A stretch of 34,098 nt of DNA, taken from Flavobacteriales bacterium. Lineage in GTDB: Bacteria; Bacteroidota; Bacteroidia; Flavobacteriales_D; Sanyastnellaceae. Location: NCBI GenBank assembly GCA_027491215.1, contig JAIXWP010000117.1, forward strand, positions 1-34,098. The letters run 5' to 3'. The position numbers and the translations under genes are program-made. Below are positions 14,700 to 20,434 of this stretch, piece by piece. The notes beneath the pieces were generated by a model that had not been told where the DNA came from, did not search any database, and saw only the letters and a list, made by a program, of their open reading frames with translations. How positions within the stretch are numbered: position 1 is the stretch's first letter; each line of letters opens with the position of its first letter.

Positions 14700-16013
14700 A
14701 TGATCTTAGCATTACAGCTCTTACTTAGTCTTTCATTCCTCATTATACTTCATGAAGCAGGTCACTTCATTCCTGCTAAGCTCTTCAAAACACGTGTAGA
14801 GAAATTCTATCTGTTTTTCGATCCTTATTTTTCTCTTATCAAGAAAAAAATTGGCGATACAGAATACGGCATCGGGTGGCTGCCACTTGGAGGATATGTG
14901 AAGATATCTGGTATGGTGGATGAGAGCATGGATAAAGAGCAAATGGCTCAACCTGCACAACCATGGGAATTTCGTTCGAAGCCAGCTTGGCAACGTTTGA
15001 TTATTATGGTGGGCGGTGTTACCGTCAACGTTATCGTTGGTATCGTGATCTACTCAGTCATTCTTGGTGTTTGGGGGAAAACTATTCTTCCAGTCGACAA
15101 CCTCACTTATGGGGTGTACTGCGATGATCAAATGCTCAATTTAGGTTTCAGACATGGGGATAAAATTGTAGGTCTCAATGGTGAAAAACCTGAGAGCTTC
15201 AACGGTATCAATAAGTCTTTACTACTTGACGATATTCATACAGTTACAGTTCAAAGATTTGGGCAAAACATCGACTTACAACTTCCGGCAGACTTCGGTC
15301 AATTGCTTGTAGATAGCGGCGTTCGTGCAGCATTCAGTGAAAGAATCCCCTGTGTTGTTGACTCCATAGTTGCGGAAAGTAATGCTTCTGTAGCAGGTCT
15401 TCTTAAAGGTGATTCGCTCGTGGGTATCAACAATATGTACTCACCATATTTCCAAGACCTACAAAAAGAGATTCAGAAAAATGCAGGCAAGACCATAGGA
15501 TTGCATATAGTTCGTGATGGACAAAATATCAATCTTCCAATTGCTGTTAACGCGAAAGGAACTATTGGTTTTTCTCCAAAATCTCCATCAGCATATCTCA
15601 AAACACAAACGATCGAATACTCATGGGCACAAGCTATTCCTGGAGGTTTTAAGCAGGCTTGGGAAACGATCACCGACTATGGAAGTCAGTTGAAATTTAT
15701 CTTCTCTAAATCCGGTGCTAAACAAATTGGTGGCTTTGCAACATTTGCAAAACTCTTTCCTGAAGAATGGGATTGGTTGGCTTTTTGGTCACGCACTGCA
15801 CTCATTTCTTTGATTCTTGCATTTATGAATATTCTTCCAATCCCTGCATTGGATGGTGGTCACGTGATGTTCTTGATCTGGGAAATGATCACAGGACGTG
15901 CGGCACCACAAAAAGTAATTGAATATTCGCAAATGGCGGGAATGGTATTACTTTTAGGTCTCATGTTGTACGGAAATGGGATGGATATTTTCCGCGCCAT
16001 TACCGGACAGTAA
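14700..16013 (+). CDS. rseP: RseP-type site-2 intramembrane zinc metalloprotease
   Basis: A 437-residue membrane protease. The first transmembrane segment contains the zinc motif HEAGH (H18, E19, H22), and the third ligand lies in PIPALDGGHV (D385). Transmembrane helices are visible near residues 2-20, 100-123, 365-380 and 412-430. Two PDZ-like regions lie between about 135 and 290 (GDKIVGLNG and GDSLVGINN). Family members make the second cut in membrane-bound anti-sigma factors, and also clear signal peptides. No anti-sigma gene is adjacent, so the substrate is unknown. The next gene starts 10 bp after its stop and is probably co-transcribed. Confidence 0.95.
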   Translation: MILALQLLLSLSFLIILHEAGHFIPAKLFKTRVEKFYLFFDPYFSLIKKKIGDTEYGIGWLPLGGYVKISGMVDESMDKEQMAQPAQPWEFRSKPAWQRLIIMVGGVTVNVIVGIVIYSVILGVWGKTILPVDNLTYGVYCDDQMLNLGFRHGDKIVGLNGEKPESFNGINKSLLLDDIHTVTVQRFGQNIDLQLPADFGQLLVDSGVRAAFSERIPCVVDSIVAESNASVAGLLKGDSLVGINNMYSPYFQDLQKEIQKNAGKTIGLHIVRDGQNINLPIAVNAKGTIGFSPKSPSAYLKTQTIEYSWAQAIPGGFKQAWETITDYGSQLKFIFSKSGAKQIGGFATFAKLFPEEWDWLAFWSRTALISLILAFMNILPIPALDGGHVMFLIWEMITGRAAPQKVIEYSQMAGMVLLLGLMLYGNGMDIFRAITGQ

Positions 16014-16023
16014 AAGATTTCAT

Positions 16024-17547
16024 ATGATTAAAAAAGTCCTGTACACATCACTTCTGTGCTGCTTTACGCTAGGGCTTTTTAGTCAAGATTCTCTGATCTA
16101 TTCTTCTAATTTTAAGCTCGAGCGCCACACAAAAAGCGTTTCAATTTTATCTGTAAATAAAAATCTTAGTCTCGAGATAGAAGAAACGAATGATCGTGAG
16201 CCACTGCTTATCATTGAGCGCTTTAATGATAAGCTAGAATCGCAAGGCCTCGCTACCTATCCTCTCCCGCAATGGAATGAGTCAGAACTTTCACTTTCTC
16301 ACTTTCATGTTTTGAAAGACCGCGTTCTAATTTTTCTAACAGGATATGATAGAAAAGAAGGCAAACAATATGGTCTTTGTATGACCTCCACTTTAGACGG
16401 GACAAGTGTCAGCGAACCGAGATTACTACAATATATCGAACAAGATTTCCGTACACCTTTCGGCACAGAATTATCTCCCGATTCATCACTCGTACTCACT
16501 TATTTCGAGCAAAATATTCAGCGAAAAACAGACCGCAATGTCGATATCAAAGTATTCAATGTAGATCTCGTTTTGCAGTGGGGTAAAAAACTTGAATTGC
16601 CTTACGGAAATGATGTAGTGCAGATCAATCAATTCAAAGTAGACAACCACGGCAGCGTCTATATGATGAGCGGACGTAATCCTGAAAAAAACAATCAACG
16701 TCTGCTTCGCCCGCAGGGCGGGCGTTACGTCGTGTTTCACTACAACCAAGCCGACAACAAACTGAAAGAATACGATATCAGTTTTAAAGACAAACAAGTC
16801 ATTGCCGCGATCGGAAAAGTGAATAGAAACAACGAAATGATCGTTGCTGGTTATTACTCCAACGACTATTCTTTTTCTGCAGCCGGTACATTTTTATTTC
16901 GGATAAAAGAAAAAGGTCAGGCCCTCGAAGCAGCAGCGTACATGGCATTTAACAAAGATTTTTTAGCCACCATGATGCGCAGTCGTGAAGTAGAGCGTAC
17001 TCCAGAATTGAGCGATTTATTTCTCGATCATATTTTCATCTCCGATCAAAATGAAATCTATCTCATTGGGGAAAAATACAGCGTTGCAGAGCGCGTCAAT
17101 ACCGATCTCAACACGGGCAGACCTATAGTAGAATTGATTCATCACTATGATGATATTGTTATTTCCAAATTAGAGCTATCAGGAAAAATAAAATGGTCGC
17201 GTCGCATTGCAAAAGAGCAGCACACTGTAAACGAAATGGATCGATGTGGTTATAATTATTACTATGATGGGACGTTGAATATCTACTTCAATGATCATCC
17301 CGATAATGATAAAATTCTTCGTGAAAATCCGAATGTGCTCATCAATAGCTGGAACGGTTCCCGCTCGGGTGTGGTATCACATGTTCAATTGAATGCCTTA
17401 GGAGAAATGGATCGAAAAATCTTGCTTTCAAGCAAAGCTGCCGGTGGAATGCTCATGCCCGCACTCAGCTCCCAAGAATTCCGCCGCCCGATCATCCTTG
17501 GACTCATGCAAAACCGCGAATACCGCCTTGTGAAGGCTGGTGGCTAA
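16024..17547 (+). CDS. unknown exported protein, possibly beta-propeller
   Basis: A 507-residue protein I do not recognise. The start at 16024 gives a clear signal peptide (MIKKVLYTSLLCCFTLGLFS, then QDS); an upstream in-frame ATG at 15976 lies inside rseP and was rejected. The mature part consists of repeated short beta-strands with turns such as VDNHGSVYMMSG, VNRNNEMIVAGYYS and ISDQNEIYLIGEKY, spaced like blades of a beta-propeller. There is no lipobox and no T9SS sorting domain. It follows rseP by 10 bp, suggesting a shared transcript and an envelope role. The last residues (KAGG and stop) are encoded by the first copies of a heptamer repeat array. A GC-rich palindrome lies inside the gene at 16708-16724. 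Confidence 0.75.
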   Translation: MIKKVLYTSLLCCFTLGLFSQDSLIYSSNFKLERHTKSVSILSVNKNLSLEIEETNDREPLLIIERFNDKLESQGLATYPLPQWNESELSLSHFHVLKDRVLIFLTGYDRKEGKQYGLCMTSTLDGTSVSEPRLLQYIEQDFRTPFGTELSPDSSLVLTYFEQNIQRKTDRNVDIKVFNVDLVLQWGKKLELPYGNDVVQINQFKVDNHGSVYMMSGRNPEKNNQRLLRPQGGRYVVFHYNQADNKLKEYDISFKDKQVIAAIGKVNRNNEMIVAGYYSNDYSFSAAGTFLFRIKEKGQALEAAAYMAFNKDFLATMMRSREVERTPELSDLFLDHIFISDQNEIYLIGEKYSVAERVNTDLNTGRPIVELIHHYDDIVISKLELSGKIKWSRRIAKEQHTVNEMDRCGYNYYYDGTLNIYFNDHPDNDKILRENPNVLINSWNGSRSGVVSHVQLNALGEMDRKILLSSKAAGGMLMPALSSQEFRRPIILGLMQNREYRLVKAGG

Positions 17548-17576
17548 TGGCTGGTGGCTGGTGGCTAGTGGTTAAC
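17535..17576 (+). repeat. tandem heptamer array GGCTRRT
   Basis: Five consecutive heptamers GGCTGGT, GGCTAAT, GGCTGGT, GGCTGGT, GGCTAGT occupy 17535-17569, and a degenerate sixth (GGTTAAC) follows. The array starts inside the preceding coding sequence; its second unit supplies the TAA stop codon at 17545-17547. Confidence 0.85.
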
Positions 17577-17579
17577 GCC

Positions 17580-17712
17580 ATCGAGCCGAAGGCGAGATAA
17601 AAAAAAGCAGCGAAGCTACCAGACATCGAGCCGAAGGCGAGATACCCATCAGCGAAGCCGCAGGCGAGCTTCCCGTCAGCGAAGCTACCAGACTTCGCGC
17701 CAACAGCGCGAA
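17580..17712. repeat. hairpin-rich repeat element, copy A
   Basis: This copy contains two identical 19-mers, ATCGAGCCGAAGGCGAGAT, at 17580-17598 and 17625-17643. Three GCGAAGC heptamers lie at 17610-17616, 17652-17658 and 17679-17685. The element closes with a 7-bp hairpin, TTCGCGC/GCGCGAA around loop CAACA, at 17694-17712. Bases 17608-17712 recur as 18459-18563 with five differences in 105. Within the element a unit of 26-27 nt is itself repeated. Two of the short motifs can fold into 3-bp stems with GNA triloops (AGC-GAA-GCT, GCC-GCA-GGC). It lies directly upstream of the promoter of the lipoprotein gene. Confidence 0.85.
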
Positions 17713-17717
17713 ACTTG

Positions 17718-17725
17718 TATATTTG
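17718..17725 (+). promoter_or_regulatory. candidate -7 promoter element for the lipoprotein gene
   Basis: TATATTTG fully matches TAnnTTTG and ends 16 nt before the ATG at 17742. It begins 6 nt after repeat copy A; the place where the TTG element should be falls inside the repeat's terminal hairpin, where TTC (17694-17696) lies 21 nt upstream. Confidence 0.5.
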
Positions 17726-17741
17726 GAGATAAACTAAGATC

Positions 17742-18404
17742 ATGAAAAAACTGCTTGTGATTGCGTCGGCAATTTTAACTCTATCATCGTGCACTCATCA
17801 TTTGACAAGTGGAAATGCTATTGAACCCACTGTTACATTCAATGCAAAAGCCAATCTTGAATTAGACGTTCAGATTGACACAACAAAACTTTTAACGGGT
17901 TATTCAAAGACCACCACCATCTTGGGATTCATTCGCTTTGGTGATAGAAATTTCATTGACACATATACCAAAGCAGTTGGAGATCGTGAGAAAAAAGCCG
18001 CCACTTACAAGGCACTAGATGGTACGAACCATGATGTGATTATCAATCCGAAATATCAAATATCTACCTATCGCGGACTCTTAATTCAATCCACTAAATG
18101 CAGAGTTTCGGGATATGGTGGAAAATATGTTTTCAAAACAAGCACAGGAACCATTCCTGATGTACCAAAAGGTGGTAGTCCAGATATGGATGAGTCTCCC
18201 ACCACGACTTCCAAAATTATCCTCATCAACAAAACAAGCAATCCTGAATACGTTGGAAAATTCGCCTCATTCAATTTTGGCGATAAAAAATTAGAGGGGA
18301 AAATCATCAATGCAGACGGTGAGTTCTATGTTCTATCGACCACCATCGACGGCGTAGAAAAAATCCTCCAAATCCCCACAACGGACCTAATCAAGGTTTG
18401 GTAA
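17742..18404 (+). CDS. lipoprotein of unknown function, bracketed by repeats
   Basis: A 220-residue protein with a lipoprotein signal peptide (MKKLLVIASAILTLSSC, Cys17 in LSSC). The first half (LGFIRFGDRNFID, then AATYKAL ... HDVIINPKYQ, then KCRVSGYGGKY) resembles small Bacteroidota lipoproteins of the DUF6567/TRL-like type, from memory and not checked. The second half (about 135-220) looks like a separate small beta-domain (KLEGKIINADGEFYVLSTTIDG). It has its own promoter and short leader. Near-identical 105-bp repeats lie on both sides, and the tRNA-Leu gene follows on the other strand, so it looks like an exchangeable cassette. No function is proposed. Confidence 0.8.
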   Translation: MKKLLVIASAILTLSSCTHHLTSGNAIEPTVTFNAKANLELDVQIDTTKLLTGYSKTTTILGFIRFGDRNFIDTYTKAVGDREKKAATYKALDGTNHDVIINPKYQISTYRGLLIQSTKCRVSGYGGKYVFKTSTGTIPDVPKGGSPDMDESPTTTSKIILINKTSNPEYVGKFASFNFGDKKLEGKIINADGEFYVLSTTIDGVEKILQIPTTDLIKVW

Positions 18405-18414
18405 AAGGCTAGAC

Positions 18415-18563
18415 GGCTATCGGCTTCGGCTATCGAGCTGAAGGCTCGATTCAATCGTCAGCGAAGCTACCAGACATCGAGCCGAAGGCGAGATACCCAT
18501 CAGCGAAGCCGCAGGCGAGCTACCCGTCAGCGAAGCTACCCGACTTTGCGCCAAGAGCGCAAA
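18415..18563. repeat. hairpin-rich repeat element, copy B
   Basis: Bases 18459-18563 repeat 17608-17712 at an offset of 851 bp with five substitutions. The part before this differs from copy A and holds GGCTATC-like units and a perfect 7-bp hairpin, ATCGAGC/GCTCGAT around TGAAG, at 18432-18450. GCGAAGC occurs at 18461-18467, 18503-18509 and 18530-18536. The terminal hairpin TTTGCGC/GCGCAAA (18545-18563) has the same shape as in copy A with one base pair exchanged. Its end touches the terminator of the tRNA gene. Confidence 0.85.
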
Positions 18564-18590
18564 AAAAAAGCTGCCAATATTGACAGCTTT
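18561..18590 (-). terminator. Rho-independent terminator of tRNA-Leu
   Basis: On the minus strand a 9-bp stem (AAAGCTGTC / GGCAGCTTT, one G-U pair, loop AATATT) runs straight into a run of nine T. It lies 13 nt after the 3' end of the tRNA. On the plus strand the stem has a C-A mismatch and a weaker tail, so it may stop the lipoprotein transcript less well. Confidence 0.8.
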
Positions 18591-18602
18591 AATTTTATGT
18601 TG

Positions 18603-18685
18603 TACCTCGGGTGGGAATCGAACCCACATGCCGCTAGGACACACGATTTTGAGTCGTGCGCGTCTACCAATTCCGCCACCAAGGC
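18603..18685 (-). tRNA. tRNA-Leu (anticodon CAA)
   Basis: The minus strand begins GCCTTGGTGGCGGAATTGG and ends CCGAGGTA. The acceptor stem GCCTTGG pairs with CCGAGGT. The anticodon arm is CACGA-CTCAAAA-TCGTG, giving anticodon CAA (codon UUG). A long variable arm and the T arm GTGGG-TTCGATT-CCCAC confirm a class II leucine tRNA. The 3' CCA is not encoded. Confidence 0.96.
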
Positions 18686-18817: not shown

Positions 18818-20434
18818 TTACTCAACCACAATTTTCCAATTTGCAACAACTTCATTATTTACAAAAAAAGTAAAGTAGTGCTGACCTTTGATTTGATGAT
18901 CAAAACTCATCGCGAAATGCTGCTCTCCCACCTCGAGCATTTCAAATGATCCATCTCCAAGATAATCGTCTACGGGCAAATCTTCGCTGTAAGGCTTTGA
19001 TGTCAATGCGAAATAAATATCTGAAGCTTGTTGTAACTCGAAAGAAACATTAAACTCATCCATATTGGCATTGGTATAAACTTCAAGTTTTAATCCATCC
19101 CCCGAATGAACGTTCGGTTTTTCGATTACCGACTTGGACTCCCAATAAATCTCCTGAACCAACGTGGAGGCTTCGCTATCTGCTCCCTCATTTTCCCAAA
19201 AAATATTTGGCTTTCTACTTTTTATGCCACCAAATACATAACCCAGCAGAACGCGCTTTTCCTTAAACATTGAAATGTCTATCAATCCATTCGCTGTTTT
19301 TGGCAAGCCCGGAGCCATTAAGAAGTGTGCTCCACTCCCCAAATAATCTGGCATTTCCAATCCTGTTGCAAACTCATTCATCTTACCATCGCTGTCCACT
19401 TCAATGCGAGAAATCGTTTTTACGAATGGCGTATTCGAATCTTGAACGATGGTGTCATTTTGCAAATAATACTCTCCAATTCCCCCTAAAAAATAGTGGT
19501 GCACCTTTTCTGAAGCACTATCATACAAATCAATGTGCGCAGTGTGATAGTGATTGTAAGATTGGTAAAAACCATCTACTTCTTCCCAATCGCCCGACTC
19601 ATTCATCCGTACCACATTGCGGTAGGGCATGTCTCTCTCTAATTGAAAAACCCCTGAAAACGCCATTAGTCCTGGCTTTCCAGAAATCATGGTGGGCGCA
19701 AGATTGTAATCTCGTCGATGCAACAATGTAGTATCAATGTAGGATGCTAGCTGAACCACTTCCAGCTTTTGACCTTCTTCTTTCAATTCAAAACTGCGGC
19801 AGCCATTGACATAATTTTGAACGTAAGTGGGATTTCCCTTGGGGTTATAACTTCCATCAAAGCGATGTCCACCAACCAAATAGAATTTTCCATTAAGATA
19901 TTCCAATTGTCCTCCACACACCGCAAAAGACTCGTTATTGAATATTTGAAATGCCTTTTCAGTGATGGTGCCTTTTTTTATTTCGGTGATTAATAAAGGA
20001 AGATCGATGACGAGAAGCGCAGGAAATGATTTCTTGTCGTCAATTGCTTTGCTATATCCATAGCCACCCACAAGAATCAGCTTTGCTCTTTCTTGATAAA
20101 ACTGAATGTTACTCGAGCTCAACTGCTCGTGCAGTGCTGTTGGTAAGGATGAAGTGGAGATTGTCCATGTGCGATGCTCGGTAGAACTCCACACTACAAT
20201 ATTCGTGTTGCGTTGATCGGGATGAAACGATACCCAAGGTTGCTTCAAGTGCAGTCCTTCCGTGCGCCCGCCGATGAAGACGTAGTTTCCTTCCCATTCT
20301 CCAAATGCATAAGACTGAAGCCCTGGAAGGGCACATCCAGCATAATTATTAAGAGAAATACTAAAATCGGTTTGCGAAAAAACGTTGAGAGATAGAAAAA
20401 GAGAGAGCACCCAAAAGGCAGCGACTCGAATCAT
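18818..20434 (-). CDS. exported Kelch-like beta-propeller protein of unknown function
   Basis: A 538-residue protein with signal peptide MIRVAAFWVLSLFLSLNVFS followed by QTD. Five double-glycine strands are spread through the first 400 residues (FIGGRTEG, LVGGYGYS, LVGGHRFDGS, FLGGIGEYY, FGGIKSRK), as in Kelch-type beta-propellers. The last 120 residues form a different beta-rich part ending HYFTFFVNNEVVANWKIVVE. This end faintly recalls a T9SS type A sorting domain, but the YPNP motif is missing, so no such call is made. It starts 19 bp after the panC stop and is probably co-transcribed with panC, with which no functional link is evident. Confidence 0.75.
   Translation of the reverse strand: MIRVAAFWVLSLFLSLNVFSQTDFSISLNNYAGCALPGLQSYAFGEWEGNYVFIGGRTEGLHLKQPWVSFHPDQRNTNIVVWSSTEHRTWTISTSSLPTALHEQLSSSNIQFYQERAKLILVGGYGYSKAIDDKKSFPALLVIDLPLLITEIKKGTITEKAFQIFNNESFAVCGGQLEYLNGKFYLVGGHRFDGSYNPKGNPTYVQNYVNGCRSFELKEEGQKLEVVQLASYIDTTLLHRRDYNLAPTMISGKPGLMAFSGVFQLERDMPYRNVVRMNESGDWEEVDGFYQSYNHYHTAHIDLYDSASEKVHHYFLGGIGEYYLQNDTIVQDSNTPFVKTISRIEVDSDGKMNEFATGLEMPDYLGSGAHFLMAPGLPKTANGLIDISMFKEKRVLLGYVFGGIKSRKPNIFWENEGADSEASTLVQEIYWESKSVIEKPNVHSGDGLKLEVYTNANMDEFNVSFELQQASDIYFALTSKPYSEDLPVDDYLGDGSFEMLEVGEQHFAMSFDHQIKGQHYFTFFVNNEVVANWKIVVE

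Follow-up and report, generated by a model that had tools for sequence, protein, structure and literature searches.

The stretch of DNA analysed here (the window) comprises 34,098 nucleotides of contig JAIXWP010000117.1 from a member of the Flavobacteriales (assembly GCA_027491215.1; 3.17 Mb, 150 contigs, 99.95 % complete). It contains a single lipoprotein gene lying between two near-identical copies of a hairpin-rich repeat, with a large gene upstream and a tRNA-Leu gene and a further large gene on the opposite strand downstream (Table 1). The tRNA gene lies 38 bp beyond copy 2 and adjoins this copy only, because copy 1 is about 0.9 kb distant. Pfam scans of those 26 of the 50 mechanical ORFs in the window that were taken for genes returned no transposase or integrase; type IX secretion sorting domains are encoded in the window and would point to Bacteroidota. 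Between positions 17500 and 18720, nothing but the tRNA exceeded its Rfam gathering threshold.

A repeat search of the window returned the two copies as a direct repeat of 106 nt with 95 % identity (17608-17713 and 18459-18564), the sole direct repeat of at least 40 nt in the window (seed 14). Alignment of the copies over 105 nt revealed exactly five differences (100/105 identical), and each copy contains three GCGAAGC heptamers, so that the near-identical repeats reported around one lipoprotein gene are confirmed. The window as a whole holds nine GCGAAGC compared to a shuffle mean of 2.96, a count of nine being reached by 1 of 100 shuffles, and the hairpin word ATCGAGCCGAAGGCGAGAT occurs four times with up to three mismatches and in none of 100 shuffles. 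As RNA, copy 1 with its flanks folds better than 200 of 200 shuffles (z -3.4); the fold of copy 2 is less clear-cut (z -2.8, with 2 of 200 shuffles equally good). Two of the five differences between the copies, C/T at 17696 and G/A at 17710, form a compensatory pair within the last hairpin, and the hairpin at 17580 with its tandem G-A mismatch has a fully paired counterpart at 18432. Pairing is thus kept by change as well as by identity. The span of the repeat should better be extended to the hairpins at 17580-17598 and 18432-18450 and to the heptamer run at 17535-17571, within which lies the TAA stop codon (17545-17547) of ORF 15976-17547.

Table 1. Features of the repeat locus (positions in the window)
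Feature	Position	Strand	Remark
523-aa gene, upstream	15976..17547	+	last codons enter the heptamer run
Heptamer run, TGRCWRR family (TGGCTAA/TGGCTGG/TGGCTAG)	17535..17571	+	TRF; exact pattern matches 17541-17568
Hairpin unit ATCGAGCCGAAGGCGAGAT, upstream of copy 1	17580..17598	+	GAA loop, tandem G-A mismatch
Array copy 1, five hairpin units	17608..17712	+	linkers ACCAGAC, ACCCATC, TCCCGTC, ACCAGAC
Last hairpin of copy 1, TTCGCG..CGCGAA	17694..17712	+	17696 pairs with 17710, both altered in copy 2
Lipoprotein gene, 220 aa	17742..18404	+	
Hairpin unit ATCGAGCTGAAGGCTCGAT	18432..18450	+	fully Watson-Crick form of the 17580-17598 unit
Array copy 2	18459..18563	+	100/105 identical to copy 1
Last hairpin of copy 2, TTTGCG..CGCAAA	18545..18563	+	compensated
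Stem-loop and T run, putative tRNA-Leu terminator	18567..18590	-	read by eye; abuts array copy 2
tRNA-Leu(caa), intact	18602..18685	-	neighbour of copy 2
538-aa gene	18818..20434	-	

A dispersed family of hairpin arrays

When copy 1 was used in a DNA search of its own assembly, eight weaker matches were obtained on other contigs (E values from 3e-7 to 0.29). In about 189 kb (~6 %) of the genome that were read, 19 arrays are seen at 17 places (18 from the main reading and one at C69 37153-37250); since these stretches were picked by pattern matches, the counts are lower bounds and biased by the pattern. A contig end conceals one neighbour at three of the places, namely on C8, on C38 and at the first of those on C39, and some arrays overlap mechanical ORFs, which were taken as spurious or over-extended. 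The preliminary description had suggested a REP/BIME-like element family and had named many intergenic copies in a genome search with the 105-bp unit as support for it; on this point the suggestion stood, since the ~6 % of the genome that was read already has arrays near gene ends at 17 places.

The exact array pattern matches 16 times in this genome compared to 0 matches for a backward control pattern. Elsewhere in the family sample it matches once, in genome G042, where the DNA looks coding by eye so that this candidate was rejected, and not at all in the other 112 genomes, including both same-genus genomes (G039 and G040). From exact-pattern matches in one genome plus a single coding-like one, hairpin arrays would appear to be confined to this species within the sampled family, as far as the pattern tells.

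The starts of contigs C38 and C39 of the genome under study (G000), the end of contig C192 of G040 and the start of contig C1 of G039 (L120) lie in arrays or heptamer-like sequence; assemblies may therefore break there and the counts may be underestimates. Other repeat types, with runs like AATTCGGGATTCG and CCCAACTCCCAA, are found on C1, C25 and C102 (L081, L100 and L023) and fall outside the grammar of the arrays.

Beyond the family, blastn yielded no match to the repeat among plasmids or phages, and an exact 24-base pattern returned nothing from the GTDB genome collection, from which genomes very near this one may be left out. A degenerate 21-base pattern matched three stretches of the GTDB collection, in MAGs assigned to the Opitutae, the Chloroflexota and the Clostridiales. 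The Opitutae match looks like coding DNA by eye and was set aside, as were two viral-contig matches in coding-looking DNA of 58-59 % GC. In the Clostridiales MAG (HAN094), which belongs to another phylum, the match (L060, about 2670-2725) sits in a context with the same hairpin-linker grammar and a second related site exists (L152, about 1490-1540). The words GAACGCC, ACGAGCGTAGCGAGT, ACCCGTC and ACTTCGTG are found there, with the full hairpin-linker string at one of the two sites only. With eight matches at up to two mismatches in this MAG and six for the backward control there is no clear excess, and the resemblance is best regarded as a lead. A literature search, with most subscription journals outside its reach, returned no published description of the hairpin-array repeat.

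Unit grammar and strand polarity

The arrays consist of head-to-tail hairpins of 7-20 nt, typically of the form A-X-GA-GC-GNA-GC-GA-X'-T and joined by linkers such as ACCCGTC, the order of elements being ...CGTC / A X GA GC G(N)A GC GA X' T / ACC CGTC / A... A linker regex, derived partly by eye from the arrays, gave 59 matches in the about 189 kb, four of which were discarded as spurious; the remaining 55 units are those between two linkers, the first and last units of arrays being left out. Units that copy one another are not independent, which affects all pairing and loop counts given below.

The first pair is A..T in 54 of 55 units (54/59 counting the four dropped matches). The following pair, X-X', is Watson-Crick in 44/44 units of 9, 15 or 16 nt (shuffle mean 19.3, reached by 0 of 100,000 shuffles) and still so in 19/19 units when only distinct ones are considered (shuffle mean 7.2). 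The identity of this pair varies: C-G (12), G-C (9) and T-A (4) in the 25 units of 15-16 nt, C-G (12) and G-C (7) in the 19 nine-mers; among the four 7-mers, the second pair is C-G in three and T-G in one. A tandem G-A mismatch follows at positions 3 and 4 (23/25 and 22/25 units of 15-16 nt, respectively). The triloops in the 38 units of 7, 9 and 15 nt are without exception GAA (27) or GCA (11), and the tetraloops of the ten 16-mers are GCCA, GTTA, GTCA or GATA, that is GNYA in 10/10 and never GNRA. Altogether GNA or GNYA loops occur in 50/55 units, the five exceptions being a TCC and a TTT loop, one 17-mer and two 20-mers. Two of the four 19-mers have a GAA loop and the other two carry TCC and TTT on fully paired stems; AAA loops occur in uncounted end units on C39 and C86. 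Most units (44/55) are thus 9, 15 or 16 nt long with loops of 3-4 nt, and eight Watson-Crick pairs are present in only two of 55. The tag preceding a unit is mainly CGTC (26 of 55), followed by CGAC (7), AGTC (4), AGAC (4), CATC (3), TGTC (1) and rarer forms, part of the linker having been fixed by the regex, which also largely imposed the ACC tail seen in 52/55 units.

For 26 distinct units the mean RNA folding energy is -2.5 kcal/mol for the strand carrying the GNA loops and -1.5 kcal/mol for its complement. Nearest-neighbour energies of single units are of little use, many being zero on both strands with RNA as well as DNA parameters. GNA loops form exceptionally stable DNA mini-hairpins, and it is on this property that the presumed stability of the short units rests, because folding energies give many of them none. 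The G-A mismatches, present on one strand only, are not required of a palindrome that is bound as a duplex; the constraint therefore seems to act on a single strand that folds and has a fixed polarity. That the tetraloops are GNYA and not GNRA leans to DNA and not RNA as the folded species, bearing in mind that only four loop types are concerned.

Position of the arrays and gain at sufE

Nine of 18 arrays end at most about 16 bp from, or overlap, the stop codon of a gene on the opposite strand, and other arrays end just ahead of a start codon (mechanical ORFs in both cases). Among the six arrays located between co-directional genes four are in sense and two in antisense orientation; the arrays at C69 40458-40515 and C22 3985-4065 are antisense to both neighbours. 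Stop codons can lie within the terminal hairpins themselves, as at C69 38239 and 40521, where the TAA stems from the GTTA loop read on the other strand, and on C86 the array supplies the stop codon of sufE.

The sufE locus on C86 lends itself to a comparison with relatives. The gene pair was identified by Pfam as SufE (PF02657) and a downstream Fe-S assembly protein (PF01883), and the spacer between the protein matches measures 112 nt with the array here compared to 17-80 nt in relatives. Both genes were found in eight of nine relatives searched, the ninth (G042) having no sufE match in the flank examined, and no array is visible in the spacer in any of the eight. Because the spacer holds an array here and none in 8/8 relatives, the simplest reading is that the array would have been gained at sufE after the split from G040 and G039. 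That an element of this kind entered a site, as the preliminary description implied, is borne out by this spacer.

Heptamer runs accompany the arrays. An exact three-unit TGRCWRR run lies within 300 bp of 8/17 array places, compared to about 0.6 % of the genome that falls in such neighbourhoods. In total, TGRCWRR runs match 184 times in this genome at up to one mismatch and the backward control 0 times. Among 21 genera of the family, exact runs were found only in this genus (3/3 genomes) and in one other (7/8 genomes). The backward control does match in G038, G046, G048 and G060, so other heptamer families exist; with 172 and 18 matches, respectively, G046 and G048 seemingly carry a different heptamer family. 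Moreover, a leader (..GTGACTAGAGTAGTGACTAGTAAGACAGA..) is found upstream of the arrays on C39, at 40k and 57k on C69 and on C83, and in part on C8, which argues for a composite element copied between loci. A hairpin like CTCTGCGAAGCAG is present at 5/7 aligned array loci, and on C22 and C39 two arrays each point outward from a central TTCCGC..GCGGAA hairpin in a head-to-head arrangement.

The bracketed genes and the rearranging locus

The lipoprotein gene (17742-18404) starts with MKKLLVIASAILTLSSC, and its product scores 17.9 bits with Pfam LPAM_1, just under the 20-bit cut-off. Of the 100 other family genomes sampled, 17 encode homologues of residues ~1-135 (to 154 in two matches) with 31-44 % identity. 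Unlike this N-terminal part, the last 86 aa (residues 135-220) gave no match in any locus compared. The gene has no match in the two same-genus genomes, G039 and G040, the latter only 69 % complete. At the 12 loci tested of the 19 with lipoprotein homologues, direct repeats of at least 28 nt are lacking, and none of the window's neighbour genes lies near the homologues at the 19 loci (flanks of about 1.5 kb or less). The composition of the gene is ordinary, its GC (0.397) and GC3 (0.376) being close to the values of its neighbours.

Homologues of the upstream 523-aa gene are present in both same-genus genomes, which are distant from the genome under study (41-46 % identity for this protein). 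In G040, this gene is followed by a TauE-family gene (PF01925), a 538-aa homologue, a minus-strand small protein and a plus-strand tRNA-Leu, after which the contig ends in TAGTGACTAG. In G039, two other genes separate the 523-aa gene from a plus-strand tRNA-Leu, beyond which come a small gene and panC. The content between the 523-aa gene and panC thus differs in G039, and also in G040 up to its contig end, and tRNA-Leu has in both genomes the orientation opposite to that in the window. Four family genomes that are more distant also have tRNA-Leu(caa) after the 523-aa homologue and in the orientation of the latter. Here, by contrast, the minus strand carries both tRNA-Leu and the 538-aa gene, so that the stretch is a rearranging one in which these two genes are together inverted relative to G040.

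The tRNA gene had been pointed out as one of a class often used as insertion sites. That the locus is the remnant of a tRNA-targeted integrative element is a view that, apart from the 38 bp separating copy 2 from tRNA-Leu, finds little to build on: the tRNA is intact and the sole one in the window, no partial tRNA duplication exists there, the repeat stops at the presumed terminator, no integrase was detected among the 26 window ORFs scanned and the other arrays of the family adjoin protein genes. This reading, which was already largely refuted, has a negligible probability.

The claim of a mobile or recombining cassette fared differently in its parts. Bracketing of a gene by near-identical direct copies recurs at two further loci, on C22 around a four-helix-bundle 23S rRNA IVP gene (PF05635; 93 % over 72 nt) and on C69 around an esterase gene (PF00756; 88 % over 78 nt), the start of the latter not being fixed since its mechanical ORF runs through the array. 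The part that implied transfer of the lipoprotein gene as a unit is weakened by homologues elsewhere that lack flanking repeats. Likewise, relatives with one copy and no lipoprotein gene, which would have supported the idea, were not found: the same-genus genomes (one of them only 69 % complete) gave no match to the gene or to the array pattern, and no clean one-copy empty site results because their gene order differs as well. An empty-site comparison for a 699-aa gene on C69 carries little weight, since G040 alone has a close orthologue and the neighbours of the latter are not the same over the part compared. The IVP-like gene on C22 (G000:C22:3421-3768, L070) stands alone among three arrays and is a candidate repeat partner.

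Neighbouring intergenic regions both carry arrays in five cases (on C22, C39 and C92, and two on C69), a number that 0 of 20,000 random placements reach when 2,200-2,800 regions are assumed, with the proviso that in pattern-chosen stretches neighbouring arrays were likelier to be noticed. Without the place that was seen only through prior fetching, 16 places and four pairs remain, compared to a random maximum of three (2,800 regions). This excess fits local spread of arrays as well as insertion of genes between them.

Origin, spread and rival readings

The arrays are dispersed, their pairing covaries on one strand, they are located at gene ends and between one gene pair an array is present where relatives have none. 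The explanation that we favour, with a probability of roughly 0.7, is that the two copies belong to a repeat family that is lineage-specific, non-coding and non-autonomous and behaves in the manner of REP/BIME or Neisseria dRS3/NIME arrays. Its unit would be a mini-hairpin with a CGTC-type tag, composed of the tag, a hairpin closed by A...T and the tail ACC, and in head-to-tail chains tail and tag would merge into the linker ACC-CGTC. The family would spread as entire elements are copied to new sites, as suggested by the leader and heptamers that several loci share upstream; local recombination and template-switch repair may then preserve the pairing of the stems, template switching being a documented way of keeping stems paired (PMC8794818). 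For the direct pair that encloses the lipoprotein gene, local duplication or recombination in a rearranging locus is the most likely origin. Were the two copies to recombine homologously, loss or exchange of the lipoprotein gene should follow, and effects on expression should be those of hairpins at transcript ends. The lipoprotein gene and tRNA-Leu are probably bystanders.

As to the enzyme involved, the preliminary description had held that movement would need a factor encoded elsewhere and had named a Y1/REP-associated transposase as a supporting find. PF01797, the Y1/RAYT transposase domain, was not found in this 99.95 % complete genome in a search that was positive in 5/14 control genomes, and for this reason the arrays do not follow the RAYT-REP model. 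As a possible cause, loss of SbcCD, a hairpin nuclease, was considered and rejected, SbcD being present in this and both same-genus genomes.

Several other readings account for part of the data. Slippage and template switching could make hairpins and heptamers independently at tolerant gene ends with no transfer between loci. A purely mutational origin of this kind would explain the compensatory double change between copies 1 and 2, the Watson-Crick and G-A versions of one hairpin that flank them and the single family of heptamer runs in 3/3 genomes of this genus and 7/8 of another. However, the leader, which is neither a hairpin array nor a simple heptamer run, is common to arrays on different contigs and suggests copying between loci, and linker words recur across the loci read, so that such an origin appears improbable. 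Selection for RNA hairpins at 3' ends, as terminators or mRNA-stability elements, is in line with arrays that abut gene ends and supply stop codons, with the sense orientation in 4/6 arrays between co-directional genes and with the lower mean RNA energy of the GNA strand (-2.5 vs -1.5 kcal/mol). Yet half of the arrays (9/18) meet the stop codon of the adjoining gene in antisense orientation, those at C69 40458-40515 and C22 3985-4065 are antisense to both neighbours, the tetraloops (10/10, though of only four types) are GNYA and not the RNA-favoured GNRA, and no other species of the family sample shares the array pattern; an explanation by RNA function appears just as improbable.

By analogy with other repeat systems, pairs of arrays might form a gene-cassette system in which the genes they bracket are moved by homologous or site-specific recombination at the arrays. 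Three genes do lie between near-identical direct copies (the lipoprotein gene, 95 % over 106 nt, the IVP gene on C22 and the esterase gene on C69), neither same-genus genome (one 69 % complete) gave a match to the lipoprotein gene, and a similar role has been suggested in Neisseria for the dRS3/NIME arrays on both sides of pilC1 (PMC3898611). Against this stand the absence of an empty site with a single array for any bracketed gene, of direct repeats of at least 28 nt around the lipoprotein homologues (12 of 19 loci tested) and of the window's neighbours beside these homologues (19 loci, flanks of about 1.5 kb or less), and the neighbour-like composition of the lipoprotein gene (GC 0.397, GC3 0.376). 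Capture of genes by arrays is plausible, but as a full account of the family a cassette system is rather unlikely. Somewhat bolder and doubtful is the proposal of an element class that folds as single-stranded DNA on the d(GNA)/d(GNNA) mini-hairpin, is processed by a non-Y1 enzyme, spreads to gene ends and may carry genes between paired arrays in the form of minimal cassettes.

If the assignment of the units to mini-hairpins is right, the arrays would show the GNA mini-hairpin, familiar from DNA biophysics, in repeated natural use, and strand polarity would separate folded single strands from duplex palindromes. They would also be a compact system in which to ask how REP-like repeats that lack a transposase of their own are spread, and whether a gene enclosed by paired arrays is mobilised by them. 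For ACGAGCGAAGCGAGT and its G-C and T-A variants, the GNA strand would be expected, as DNA, to be much stabler than its complement.

Relation to known repeat systems

GTAG REPs and BIMEs associated with RAYT proteins resemble the repeat family favoured here in being short, extragenic palindromes that can give stop codons; unlike in these systems, a Y1/RAYT protein was not found in the genome. Cyanobacterial STRRs are heptameric tandem repeats. TAACTGA heptameric tandem repeats are described from Beggiatoaceae, Cyanobacteria and Bacteroidetes (MacGregor 2015, PMC4679880). The heptamer runs of the present genome are similar to both in that they are intergenic runs of 7-bp units, some of which directly follow a stop codon; they differ by their unit, TGRCWRR, and by their position beside hairpin arrays at several loci.

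In Neisseria, dRS3 repeats (dRS3 = CGTC-1) and NIME elements likewise form clusters of short palindromes in intergenic arrays, located on both sides of a gene, and these arrays are linked to rearrangement and to gene gain or loss; for pilC1, integration or deletion has been suggested to take place at the dRS3 repeats on its two sides (PMC3898611). In contrast to the present arrays, dRS3 repeats follow the pattern ATTCCC(N8)GGGAAT, occur almost 700 times per genome in combination with RS elements and are the target of a filamentous phage, whose integrase has been suggested to recombine the repeats. The ATTCCC(N8)GGGAAT core is absent among the 55 listed units.

Also among the closest kinds are the CGTC-tagged REPs, which are characterized by a CGTC tag, A-T first pairs and unpaired tails that are mostly CCA, with stems of 8-9 bp, loops of 4-5 nt and an organization mostly in HH dimers, HT dimers being negligible. 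They apparently have no dedicated transposase, and members are reported from Bacteroidetes among other phyla (Di Nocera et al. 2013, PMC3733652). The arrays share with them the A-T first pair and an extragenic position adjoining gene ends, and they resemble them in a short tail with CC and in the one-sided unpaired tag, which is exactly CGTC in 26 of 55 units collected with a regex that fixed part of the linker. They differ in that their stems are mostly shorter and carry the tandem G-A step, that their loops are GNA or GNYA and that the units are organized in head-to-tail chains with merged tail and tag, although it should be kept in mind that units were collected as such strings (at least two linkers on one strand). 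Since stem length, loop length and dimer arrangement differ though the A-T pair and, as far as the regex allows, the tag and the ACC tail agree, the arrays would best be described as REP-like elements with CGTC-type tags that form a new variant outside the four published families.
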